From an uncultured Saprospiraceae bacterium (GTDB taxonomy: Bacteria; Bacteroidota; Bacteroidia; Chitinophagales; Saprospiraceae): a stretch of DNA of 64,000 nucleotides. Below the pieces are notes generated by a model. It was not told the origin of the DNA, searched no databases, and saw only the letters and a list, made by a program, of their open reading frames with translations. The stretch is from NCBI GenBank assembly GCA_938001865.1, contig CALLAW010000008.1, positions 1 through 64,000 on the forward strand. Reading direction: 5' to 3'. Both the position numbers and the translations under genes were made by a program. Shown here one piece after another: positions 44,381 to 60,118 of the stretch. Every line of letters begins with the position of its first letter. Positions within the stretch are counted from its first letter, which is position 1.

Positions 44381-44529
44381 AAAAAAAAATAACAGCTGGG
44401 CGGAGAGCCTCAGCTGTTACAAATTCAATAAACTTAATCTTTTAACGCCGGTAATCAATCGGCTCAGATAAGCGTATAATAAAAAGACGAAATCTTCTTT
44501 GGTCTACTACTTATCATTCATTCAGGTTT
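44381..44529 (-). ncRNA. Candidate small RNA, unit B
   Basis: Read on the minus strand, this unit has a ~79-nt core (44421-44499) shared with unit A and ending in a terminator hairpin: arms taacagctg (44390-44398) and cagctgtta (44411-44419), an inner ggc/gcc pair, then nine U. Inside the core, gccg and cggc can pair around attgattac. No protein is plausible in any frame. The core is 97% identical to unit A apart from two single-base indels, whereas the hairpin sequences differ completely and keep the same layout. It may be an independent small RNA or part of the ftsZ 3' region. Confidence 0.55.
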
Positions 44530-44604
44530 TGATTATTCTAAAGTCTATTGAGTTTAATGTTTGGGTTATTGGTTTTTCGTTTTGTTCTCAGTAAGTAGAG
44601 TCTC

Positions 44605-44746
44605 AAAAAGTAGTCTGGACTGAGAATCCAGACTACCAAATTCAATAAACTAATCTTTTAACGCCGGTAATCAATCGGCTAGATAAGCGTATAATAAAAA
44701 GACGAAATCCTCTTAAGTCCACGACTTACCATTCTCTATTTAGGTT
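44605..44746 (-). ncRNA. Candidate small RNA, unit A
   Basis: This is the first of two tandem units downstream of ftsZ, starting about 30 bases after the ftsZ stop. The shared core lies at 44638-44714. The hairpin has perfect 10-bp arms gtagtctgga (44610-44619) and tccagactac (44627-44636), followed by five U on the minus strand. Upstream of the core, weaker similarity to unit B continues for about 30 bases, so the whole unit was duplicated. It could be processed from the end of the dcw transcript or have its own promoter. Confidence 0.55.
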
Positions 44747-44776: not shown

Positions 44777-46243
44777 CTAGTCTACACTTCCGTGTAGAAA
44801 TGAATTTTCACTAATATTAAGATCACCACCTTCGTCTACATTGACTCGTGTACCAGAAGCAAATCCCTCAGCACTGGCTTCTTCAAGGTTTTCGAGTTCG
44901 ACTTCTCTTCTCTTGTATGCAGGCACTGACTCCATCTGAGAGACGACACCGGCATTATCTAGTGGCAGAGTTTTGGTTTTACGCAAGTACTCTTTTTTTG
45001 CTTTTTCCATCTCACTATAGGTTGCCTCATCTCTTTTGGACGACTTGGAGATATTGACCCATGGGTCATTATTCTCTACGAGAGTATTACGACCTTGGTG
45101 AGCTTGGATTGTAGATTTGACATCATCTACTTCTAAGTCTAATGTAATGGTACTACTTCCTTCTGATGGTGATGTGATCGTATTCAGTCCGATACTATCT
45201 CCGTCATCTAAGGCTACCTTGATCTCTGCAGGCTTAGTCTCTTTGGTTACTGTAGCATTCTCTTGGAATCCTGTAGCGATGAGAGTAATTGAGATCTTCT
45301 CACCTAACTCTTCATTATTACAATTACCCCATATGATATCTGTACCATAGCCAGCTTCGTCTTGGATATAGTTGGAGATCATTGAGATCTCATCCATGGT
45401 TACCTCTTTGATCCCGGATGTCACATTGAACAAGATATAGTTAGCACCTCTGATCTCTTTATCTTGGAGGAGAGGTGAGTTGAGAGCCATCTCTACCGCA
45501 CGCTTAGCTCTTTCTTCGCCTTCTGCTTCGCCAGTTCCCATCATTGCTACTCCACTATCTTTCATGACAGTATTGACGTCTTCAAAGTCAACATTGATAT
45601 ATCCAGGTACTGTGATGATCTCAGCGATCCCTCGTGCTCCAGTAGTCAAGATATTATCAGCCATACCGAAGGCATCTCTCATACTGAGGTCACCGTACAT
45701 CTCTCTGACCATATCATTGGAGATGACGAGAAGTGAGTCTACATTCTGTCTCATTTTCTCTATTCCTTCGAGAGCAAATCTTGATCGTTTATTCCCTTCG
45801 AAAGAGAATGGCTTAGTGACAATACCTACTGTCAATATTCCCATCTCTTTAGCTGCCTTAGCGATAATCGGAGCAGCACCAGTCCCTGTGCCTCCACCCA
45901 TCCCAGCAGTGATGAAGAGCATCTTAGTATTATTAGCAAGGAAAGCTCTTACTGTATCGATAGACTCGATACATGACTCCTTACCTACCTCTGGTCTTGA
46001 TCCAGCTCCTCTCCCCTCAGTAAGAGTGGGTCCGAGTTGAATCTTAGTTGGTACCGGGCTAGACTCTAGTGCTTGGTTATCAGTATTGCAGATTGCGAAA
46101 TCTACACCTCTGATCCCTTGGAGGTACATATGCCCTACTGCATTGCCGCCACCGCCACCGACTCCGATGACTTTGATTTCGGATGTATTAGACTTTTCCA
46201 TGTTGTCAAATAATTCTGGGTTATTGATATTTGAATTGCTCAT
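44777..46243 (-). CDS. ftsZ: Cell division GTPase FtsZ
   Basis: A 488-residue tubulin-like GTPase that forms the Z-ring. The glycine-rich GGGGGNAV (29-36) and the tubulin signature GGGTGTG (116-122) bind GTP. The globular domain ends near 340 and is followed by a linker of about 130 residues and the terminal peptide ISENSFLHGSVD, the Bacteroidota version of the conserved C-terminal tail that binds FtsA. It is the last gene of the dcw cluster, 46 bases after ftsA. Confidence 0.97.
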   Translation of the reverse strand: MSNSNINNPELFDNMEKSNTSEIKVIGVGGGGGNAVGHMYLQGIRGVDFAICNTDNQALESSPVPTKIQLGPTLTEGRGAGSRPEVGKESCIESIDTVRAFLANNTKMLFITAGMGGGTGTGAAPIIAKAAKEMGILTVGIVTKPFSFEGNKRSRFALEGIEKMRQNVDSLLVISNDMVREMYGDLSMRDAFGMADNILTTGARGIAEIITVPGYINVDFEDVNTVMKDSGVAMMGTGEAEGEERAKRAVEMALNSPLLQDKEIRGANYILFNVTSGIKEVTMDEISMISNYIQDEAGYGTDIIWGNCNNEELGEKISITLIATGFQENATVTKETKPAEIKVALDDGDSIGLNTITSPSEGSSTITLDLEVDDVKSTIQAHQGRNTLVENNDPWVNISKSSKRDEATYSEMEKAKKEYLRKTKTLPLDNAGVVSQMESVPAYKRREVELENLEEASAEGFASGTRVNVDEGGDLNISENSFLHGSVD

Positions 46244-58759: not shown

Positions 58760-59664
58760 TTTATTTTCTCTACAACTCTTAGCTTAGCACTTCGAGCTCG
58801 ATTATTTTCTTCAATTTCTACTTCACTCGCTACTCTAAACTTTGGACCAACCCTCTTGAAGGGACTCAATCCTTGACCAAAGTCATTCTTCTCTTCTTTA
58901 CCATCTAATGATCCTGACTTCATCAAGTTTTTCACCAGCTTATCTTCTAAGGAATGATAAGTCAACACTACTAACACTCCTCCTATCTTCAAATGCTTCT
59001 CAACCTGCTGCAACATCTCCTTCAGTGCCCCTATCTCATCATTTACCTCAATTCTCAATGCCTGATAGACTTGCGAGAAGTAGCGATTCTTATCTCCAAT
59101 GTACTTTCGATCAAGCAAGGCATTGAACTGACTCACCTGCACTTCTCCCTTCCACTTTACTCTTGCATCTACTATGGATGATGCCAGTGACTTACTATTC
59201 CTCACCTCACCATACTCACTCATCACTGCGACAAGATCTTGGTAAGAGTAATGAAGTACAACATCAGAGGCAGTCAACTGAGAGTCATTATTCATTCGCA
59301 TGTCTAAGACTCCATCATTAAACCTAAAAGCAAACCCTCTCTGAGCAGCATCTATCTGCCAAGAACTCACGCCGAGATCAGCAAATATTCCATCCACCTG
59401 CTCATCTCCATAGAACTTCAACCACCTTCCAAAGTGTCGAAAATTGGATAAACTAAATTTCAAATTTCGATGTCCGACTACTTGATTTTTAGCATCAAGG
59501 TCCTGATCGAAGGCGTACAACTTCCCATCGGAGTCGAGCTTCTTCAATATTTCTTTACTATGACCTCCACCTCCAAAGGTGAGATCAACAACTACACTGC
59601 TTGAGGACTGCACGAGTGCCTCTACACACTCACTTAGCATTACTGGCTTATGATAATCACTCAC
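58756..59664 (-). CDS. rsmH: 16S rRNA m4C1402 methyltransferase
   Basis: A 302-residue SAM-dependent methyltransferase (MraW) acting on C1402 of 16S rRNA. N-terminal HKPVMLSECVEAL, the SAM motif VDLTFGGGGHSKEIL (about 24-38), FADLGVSSWQID and VLTYHSLEDKLVK are all family blocks. It overlaps mraZ by eight bases and ftsL by four, the standard start of a dcw operon. Confidence 0.97.
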   Translation of the reverse strand: MSDYHKPVMLSECVEALVQSSSSVVVDLTFGGGGHSKEILKKLDSDGKLYAFDQDLDAKNQVVGHRNLKFSLSNFRHFGRWLKFYGDEQVDGIFADLGVSSWQIDAAQRGFAFRFNDGVLDMRMNNDSQLTASDVVLHYSYQDLVAVMSEYGEVRNSKSLASSIVDARVKWKGEVQVSQFNALLDRKYIGDKNRYFSQVYQALRIEVNDEIGALKEMLQQVEKHLKIGGVLVVLTYHSLEDKLVKNLMKSGSLDGKEEKNDFGQGLSPFKRVGPKFRVASEVEIEENNRARSAKLRVVEKIK

Positions 59665-60118
59665 CTTCTGCTTTCTTTCCCCCGAAGACCTCTTCAGCTA
59701 AATCCGAGAACTCTTCTGGCTCGTGATCAGCAAGCATATTTTCATATTCTTCCTGATCCCAAATTTCTATCTGCTCATTGTATGCGAAAAGCACAACTGT
59801 CTTCTCTAAACCTGCATACTTCATCAACATCTTTGGCAATAATATCCTGTCTGCTGCATCACAGCTCACATTCGTAGCGCCTCGATAGAAATACCTAACA
59901 GCCTGTCTGTTTTTCTTTATGTAGATATTTAAGGAATTGATTTCGTTCGTCTTTTTATCCCAAACATCATGAGGATATAACATTAAATGTTTTTCAAATC
60001 CTCTATTCACAGTAAATCTCGCATGCTCTGTACCTAGTTGCTTCAACAATGCAGTTGGAAGTCTTAATCTTCCTTTTGCATCGATCTTACATTCATATTC
60101 TCCAGCTAAGTTGTACAT
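59657..60118 (-). CDS. mraZ: Transcriptional regulator MraZ
   Basis: A 153-residue AbrB-like DNA-binding protein that forms ring-shaped oligomers and represses the dcw operon in E. coli. Its two tandem SpoVT-AbrB repeats each carry the DxxxR motif: CKIDAKGRLRLPTALLK (about 11-27) and SCDAADRILLPKMLMKY (about 83-99). It is the first gene of the cluster. Three 10-bp-phased boxes that match the known MraZ operator type lie just upstream, so autoregulation is likely. Confidence 0.96.
   Translation of the reverse strand: MYNLAGEYECKIDAKGRLRLPTALLKQLGTEHARFTVNRGFEKHLMLYPHDVWDKKTNEINSLNIYIKKNRQAVRYFYRGATNVSCDAADRILLPKMLMKYAGLEKTVVLFAYNEQIEIWDQEEYENMLADHEPEEFSDLAEEVFGGKKAEGE

Follow-up and report, generated by a model that had tools for sequence, protein, structure and literature searches.

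A conserved RNA element follows ftsZ in Saprospiraceae and probably pairs with an unlinked small RNA

We describe an RNA element that follows ftsZ in Saprospiraceae and is not convincingly present in the other families of the order. That it constitutes a conserved RNA family is virtually certain. In addition, one of its two conserved blocks very probably pairs, judging from covariation across the family, with a second RNA encoded at an unlinked locus. Both blocks also match part of mraZ, the first dcw gene, and the three sequences hint at a possible RNA circuit joining both ends of the division gene cluster. The element is described here from the window, i.e. the whole stretch of 64,000 nucleotides from an uncultured Saprospiraceae bacterium (contig CALLAW010000008.1) that was analysed, whose genome is G000 in our labels; other genomes (G) and stretches (L) are cited by label where they have to be told apart.

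Two Structured Units Downstream of ftsZ

A preliminary reading of the window, made from the sequence alone (hereafter the sequence-only reading), had reported twin cores downstream of ftsZ, each followed by a terminator hairpin. Both observations hold: the cores, 79 and 77 nt long, are near-identical and differ in the alignment by one substitution and two single-base indels, and a terminator-type hairpin with a U-run lies 3' of each of them on the minus strand, the two hairpin sequences being unrelated. The location after ftsZ also stands, but the distance of 30 nt does not, as the core starts 62 nt past the ftsZ stop; about 30 nt is the gap between that stop and the edge of the interval which the sequence-only reading had delimited. 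The features of the window are listed below, each with its basis.

44777..46243 (-): ftsZ, whose protein ends SFLHGSVD and whose 3' region holds the units (ORF; Pfam Tubulin and FtsZ_C)
44638..44714 (-): unit b, proximal conserved core (core alignment; R1 match at E 7.9e-11)
44694..44709 (-): unit b block A, GATTTCGTCTTTTTAT (near-invariant in alignment A1)
44643..44656 (-): unit b block B, diverged, AGATTAGTTTATTG; family form GAGATTGGTTTATTG (family alignment)
44605..44637 (-): unit b terminator hairpin and U-run (folding; stem covaries across the family)
44421..44499 (-): unit a, distal conserved core (core alignment; R1 match at E 8.6e-8)
44479..44494 (-): unit a block A (alignment A1)
44426..44440 (-): unit a block B, diverged, AGATTAAGTTTATTG (family alignment)
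44381..44420 (-): unit a terminator hairpin and U-run (sequence and folding)
59657..60118 (-): mraZ, first dcw gene, candidate mRNA target (ORF; Pfam MraZ, E 4.9e-30)
59946..59958 (-): 13-nt mraZ stretch, ATAAAAAGACGAA, complementary to block A (complement search of the window; codon evidence in relatives)

Pfam confirmed ftsZ and mraZ, and the remaining dcw genes of the window were named by eye. None of 200 shuffles folds as well as either unit (z -5.0 and -4.1), and a 29-nt piece of the core has two matches in the window when up to three mismatches are allowed, versus none in 100 shuffles. The 366-base stretch that holds the units occurs only once in its own genome, in which the covariance model built for the element (R1) matches these two units only. 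A simple terminator scanner reported neither hairpin of the two units. Two further candidate features were rejected: a 5' stem (P1) obtained from minimum free energy folding of the window's units, for which 11,694 of 20,000 family permutations were at least as good, and a small coded peptide, as indels separate the two copies and, in relatives, the frame of the blocks varies (by eye). Two side observations concern hairpins. The hairpin sequence is also matched in six stretches of viral contigs, and L042 and L005, from the same genus, show by eye a hairpin upstream of the unit whose stem changes and whose loop, GTTAGGTTCT, is fixed.

Distribution and Structure of the RNA Family

An alignment of 25 units gives the order of the element as block A (UUCGUCUUUUU), a variable hairpin, block B (GAGAUUGGUUUAUUG) and the terminator. 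BLAST searches of 60 relatives returned matches in 50 of them at E <=1, strong matches beyond the window's own genome (E < 1e-7) being found in G001, G002, G003, and G020. The motif is present in 21 of the 30 FtsZ loci nearest to that of the window, with block A beginning no more than 279 nt past the stop. Among 150 genomes of the family, 146 show an ftsZ match and 47 carry the element according to R1 at E <=0.1; on the scale of the order, R1 detects it in 46 of 396 genomes, 44 of which belong to the family and the other two of which match at E 0.04-0.05. These R1 counts are lower bounds, as members seen by eye in G404, G416, G450, and G016 were missed. One R1 match (G226:C4) was judged false, as it is without block B.

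A pattern scan of one genome per species (84,980 species) yielded 64 stretches, in 53 of which the end of FtsZ lies 5-277 nt upstream of the element; among the other 11, eight are cut by a contig or stretch end and three are chance-like. The element starts at a median of 17 nt from the ftsZ stop codon. The sequence-only reading had not recognised the family, in agreement with Rfam 15, which gave no match at the gathering cut-off for the window and 19 loci; low-threshold matches in the window region were all far under the cut-off and chance-like. The C-rich terminator loop was considered as a seed and rejected, as the loop sequence varies. We also noticed that L062 and L069, both without the element, share a different sequence 3' of ftsZ (GGTTCTGAGTGTTTTAACCAGG).

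The terminator stem displays double changes at eight of its nine pairs, and over the whole structure 53 cells are changed on both sides, versus 17.9 in shuffles. When partner strands were swapped among units, none of 20,000 permutations was as good for the terminator (40 units) and seven of 20,000 were for the middle hairpin (the 32 units whose middle is long enough). The hairpin between the blocks thus appears to be kept by compensatory change as well, more weakly than the terminator stem. The sequence-only reading had argued for selection on the RNA, to be verified with a covariance model, and the homologues bear it out, with their compensatory changes and their conserved place after ftsZ. 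Transposon-like scatter is not supported, since the stretch has a single place in its own genome and elsewhere the element lies mostly 3' of ftsZ.

Tandem Arrays and Promoters

Tandem arrays of two to four units recur after ftsZ: two copies are present in the window's genome, G424, G428, G035, G016, L144, L186, and L187, three in G468, G127, G465, and L143, and four in G439. In G000, G424, and L187 (MAG-103), the cores agree and the terminators differ. In G468, G439, and G035, the copies are near-identical, with matching terminators, as expected if duplication was recent. A second array is located before ligD and ku, away from ftsZ, in three related MAGs (L119/L138 1-481, L160, L173); ligD and ku were identified by Pfam in L138, and those contigs begin inside the array. 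A separate observation concerns L105 (G412), in which about 0.9 kb (~390-1400) separate block A of the second copy from its block B; the insert carries helix-turn-helix and Gp49-like genes, is toxin-antitoxin-like and has short inverted-repeat ends (by eye).

No promoter-like match beats shuffles in the 17 spacers before downstream copies (lowest shuffle fraction 0.225), and a Bacteroidota -7 box is found within 150 nt of one of 40 units. The sequence-only reading had left two origins open for the units: small RNAs derived from the dcw 3' end, which fits these data, and independent twin sRNAs, which are disfavoured by them. The units could still possess a promoter of another type.

An Unlinked RNA Complementary to Block B

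Some 14 nt of block B are complementary to a second RNA, encoded at an unlinked locus, which has its own terminator. A search of 26 genomes for sequence complementary to block B, with up to one mismatch, gave 79 matches, versus 15 for the reversed pattern, and 30 of the 79 fall within the element itself. We inspected 20 of the remaining 49: 14 are located 3' of a glucosaminidase gene (PF01832) and/or convergent with pdxA (PF04166), and six lie in or near other genes, both Pfam calls having been made on G003 proteins and the genes of other genomes identified by motif or by eye. Partner neighbours are partly different in G127, G465, G251, G428, G292, and G439. The predicted fold is rod-shaped, with a stem that closes it, a U-run, and an open middle in which the site complementary to block B (b') is located. 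Folding beats mononucleotide shuffles by 2 sd in 36 of 37 partners, and the openness of the b' site (0.65) exceeds that of the remaining sequence (0.36). The partner loci gave no match to an Rfam family.

A covariance model of the partner (R2) detects it in 37 of the 150 family genomes at E <=0.1 and, over the order, in 34 of 396 genomes at E <=0.02, namely 33 in the family plus G136 (E 0.008). In 15 of the 37 genomes, a TAnnTTTG box, which we take to be the Bacteroidota promoter consensus, lies no more than 60 nt before the partner, versus a mean of 1.3 and a maximum of 6 in 500 rounds of mononucleotide shuffling. The box stands at an identical distance in eight of these 15, and five genomes have the full TTG-N-box; the window's own genome has no exact promoter box at its partner.

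The two RNAs tend to co-occur. The element is found by R1 in 33 of the 37 genomes with a partner at E <=0.1 and in 28 of 30 at E <=2.1e-4, a line drawn after the list was seen (Fisher 1e-15, uncorrected for ancestry). In G404, G416, and G450, the element found by eye at ftsZ has a block B complementary to the genome's own partner; G337 (partner at E 0.05) is counted by R1 alone. Conversely, 14 of 47 element-bearing genomes are without a partner by R2 or by hand, a count in which G402 (R2 match at E 0.09) is taken as lacking it, and G296 has a partner and has lost block B at ftsZ. As a side observation, L351 (G296:C9:91500-93600) contains at least four tandem partner-like fragments between Mur ligase and mraY-like genes, with an N run inside.

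Covariation between the Two Loci

When two unlinked non-coding loci covary, as here, the comparison of genomes directly supports contact between their RNAs. Over 37 genomes, the duplex of block B with the partner of the same genome reaches -23.8, versus -21.9 when partners are swapped, and only one of 100,000 permutations was as good. The same value (1 of 100,000) was obtained with one genome per genus (28 genomes, G003 standing for the window's genus in place of G000), and none of the permutations was as good with G000 replacing G003. Columns with double changes hold 460 paired cells versus 442.7 (3 of 20,000; 28 genus representatives), 36 of the 37 genomes being anchored in this test and G000, which has no anchor, being dropped. 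Because complementarity was used to find the first partners, the tests are biased; restriction to the 15 genera with R2-found partners (-26.6 vs -22.7; 0 of 100,000) corrects this in part only, R2 having itself been trained on partners found in that way. G296, G001, and the further order-wide R2 genomes were kept out of the 37-pair test, and all of these tests correct for shared ancestry at most in part.

A double change is seen in G432, where GGUUUACUG faces CAGUAAACC, and others are present in G439, G465, G416, G420, and G208. Block B (AGAUU(A)AGUUUAUUG) and the partner site (AUCAUCAACCAAUCUG) have both drifted in the genome of the window, and their duplex (-8.8 kcal/mol) is the weakest of the 37; in G001, from the same genus, both sites are kept. 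Duplexes between the partner and the complete units of the window were left aside, as they ignore internal structure. Block A gave a marginal result with the partner (-13.0 vs -12.2; 1,382 of 100,000; 36 genomes, in some of which, e.g. G007 and G450, the block A window was misplaced). The partner stretch facing block A lies in many genomes 3' of the first site, and is there in antiparallel order.

A Complementary Site in mraZ

When the rest of the window was searched for complements of the cores, the longest was the 13-nt stretch of mraZ, which matches block A. We compared 27 element-bearing genomes with 20 lacking the element by R1, and MraZ was recognised in 25 and 16 of them, respectively. 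Block A has an exact 11-nt complement in mraZ in 7 of 25 genomes with the element versus 0 of 16 without it. A Thr codon of mraZ is ACG in 17 of 19 cases, versus 2.7 expected (three of the 19 being from the window's genus), and in one of five genomes without the element. This ACG column shows the strongest synonymous constraint among 99 (G002 being left out of the scan), the other constrained columns clustering at residues 44-61. The latter residues, in which GTT (Val) and CTC (Leu) are constrained, are a separate observation, as pairing explains only part of it.

In synonymous-codon resampling, p <=0.05 was reached in 10 of 25 genomes for block A and in 9 of 25 for block B. Both matches are individually significant in only three of the 25 (G003, G002, and G424), which slightly lowered our confidence in mraZ as a target. 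In a scan of 18 genera excluding the window's, with one genome for each, the combined signal is restricted to scan windows over the site: the values there are 9e-5 for A and 2e-4 for B, and the lowest value in a scan window clear of the mraZ site is 0.037. G066 has all three parts, with a partner duplex of -25.6 and mraZ matches at p 0.003 for block B and p 0.087 for block A. In the window's genome, the match of block A is kept (-18.5, p 0.007) and that of block B is lost (p 0.77 vs resampled codons). Blocks A and B thus appear to be complementary to adjacent mraZ codons beyond synonymous expectation, a supported but post hoc result, as the codon tests were designed after the first match was seen. 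As the A site is 5' of the B site, a single molecule cannot use both in one duplex. Taken together, the codon data lead us to lean slightly towards mraZ being a real target.

Proposed Mechanism and Alternatives

The partner and mraZ are both complementary to the ftsZ element, which is thus the common denominator of the three loci, and we infer that a regulator, its mRNA target, and a decoy imitating the target make up the simplest scheme. The element has the placement expected of 3'-end-derived small RNAs: it lies on the same strand as a coding gene, directly 3' of it (53 of 64 stretches), and ends with a terminator, and comparative data point to pairing in trans, most weakly in the window's own genome. 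It also shows complementarity to a small RNA encoded by a separate gene, and this pairing is maintained, as would be expected of a sponge or decoy relationship. Our best explanation, to which we give an even chance, makes mraZ mRNA the trans-pairing target of an RNA that originates at the ftsZ 3' end, and the second RNA a decoy for the latter. The element would be released as a small RNA by processing or terminator read-through and would act on mraZ mRNA, the tail of the operon thereby controlling its head. The unlinked small RNA would be a decoy imitating the mraZ site, and tandem copies would raise the dose. In E. coli and Mycoplasma genitalium, MraZ is reported to repress the cluster to which it belongs (PMC8475190). 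If the mraZ link is true, control of the division operon would lie with an RNA that is produced only once transcription reaches the last gene. We are somewhat less confident that control runs in this direction, with the ftsZ element as the regulator. The complete tail-to-head dcw circuit, in which an ftsZ 3' RNA, its dose set by tandem units, the mraZ codons and a separately promoted mimic RNA would have co-evolved within a single family, is put forward tentatively.

The roles could also be reversed, the element being a target site and the unlinked RNA a regulator which binds the 3' region of ftsZ mRNA in cis, changing its decay, or is soaked up by it; mraZ would then be either another target or no more than a faint likeness. 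The promoter box of 15 of 37 partners, their open b' site (0.65 vs 0.36), the proximity of the element to the ftsZ stop (median 17 nt), and units without a visible promoter of their own would all suit such a regulator. However, each copy has its own terminator, and those further downstream could be part of ftsZ mRNA only if transcription reads through; in addition, ligD and ku are preceded by an array in three MAGs, and mraZ codons follow both blocks. We consider this reversal rather unlikely.

The remaining explanations are less probable still. Independent small RNA genes, with promoters inside ftsZ or in the spacers, would account for the terminator of every array copy and for the second array away from ftsZ, but are improbable given 17 spacers without a Bacteroidota-type promoter above shuffles and a box in one of 40 units. 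A termination or mRNA-stability element serving ftsZ only, without pairing in trans, agrees with the terminator end and the position directly after the ftsZ stop in many genomes; the covariation between loci and the codon constraint in mraZ make it more improbable again. Finally, we give almost no credence to an inert recent duplication or a mobile repeat. Tandem copies that are near-identical in G468, G439, and G035 and the insertion with inverted-repeat ends in the G412 array are what such a repeat might leave, but it is contradicted by conservation across genera, by the fixed place after ftsZ, by compensatory changes, and by cores kept next to differing terminators in G000, G424, and MAG-103.

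Comparison with Known Systems

The comparison was made by description, sequences being compared through Rfam only. The literature searched, as far as its text was available, contains no ftsZ 3' RNA of Bacteroidota and no paper combining 'Saprospiraceae' and 'sRNA'. 6S RNA associates with RNA polymerase and serves as a template for short RNAs. The partner resembles the 6S-Flavo RNA (RF01685, PMC2864571) as described, which is also a Bacteroidota RNA of similar length (its model has 108 positions) forming a rod with an open middle. Eight partner loci searched with the Rfam models at E <=1 gave no 6S match, the sole match listed in those loci being DUF805b (E 0.12, under the cut-off and on the other strand); a search of 20 genomes with RF01685 carries no weight here, as it gave no match in the control either.

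UpsM of Rhodobacter sphaeroides (PMC5089854) shares with the element an origin in an untranslated end of the dcw cluster and a family-restricted distribution, but comes from the 5' leader before mraZ, and pairing with an ftsZ 3' end does not figure in its published description as available to us. DicF and DinR (PMC9438474, PMC10907235) are likewise small RNAs tied to FtsZ and division, and DinR derives from an mRNA 3' end. According to these descriptions, both act on ftsZ from outside, DinR at the ribosome binding site, whereas the element comes from the ftsZ 3' end itself.

A likeness is also seen with SroC, a fragment of the gltI 3' end which is described as a sponge of GcvB, and with the comparable SkatA and PspH (PMC9438474): in each case, an RNA from the 3' part of an mRNA pairs with a separately transcribed small RNA, as would be the case here. 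SroC, SkatA, PspH, DicF, and DinR are known from other phyla and, as far as they are described, none of them, nor UpsM, has the present place and arrangement. The element departs from the three sponges, as these are reported, in its source, ftsZ, in its tandem repeats, and in its occurrence in Bacteroidota, and its second RNA seems to imitate a site within a coding region.
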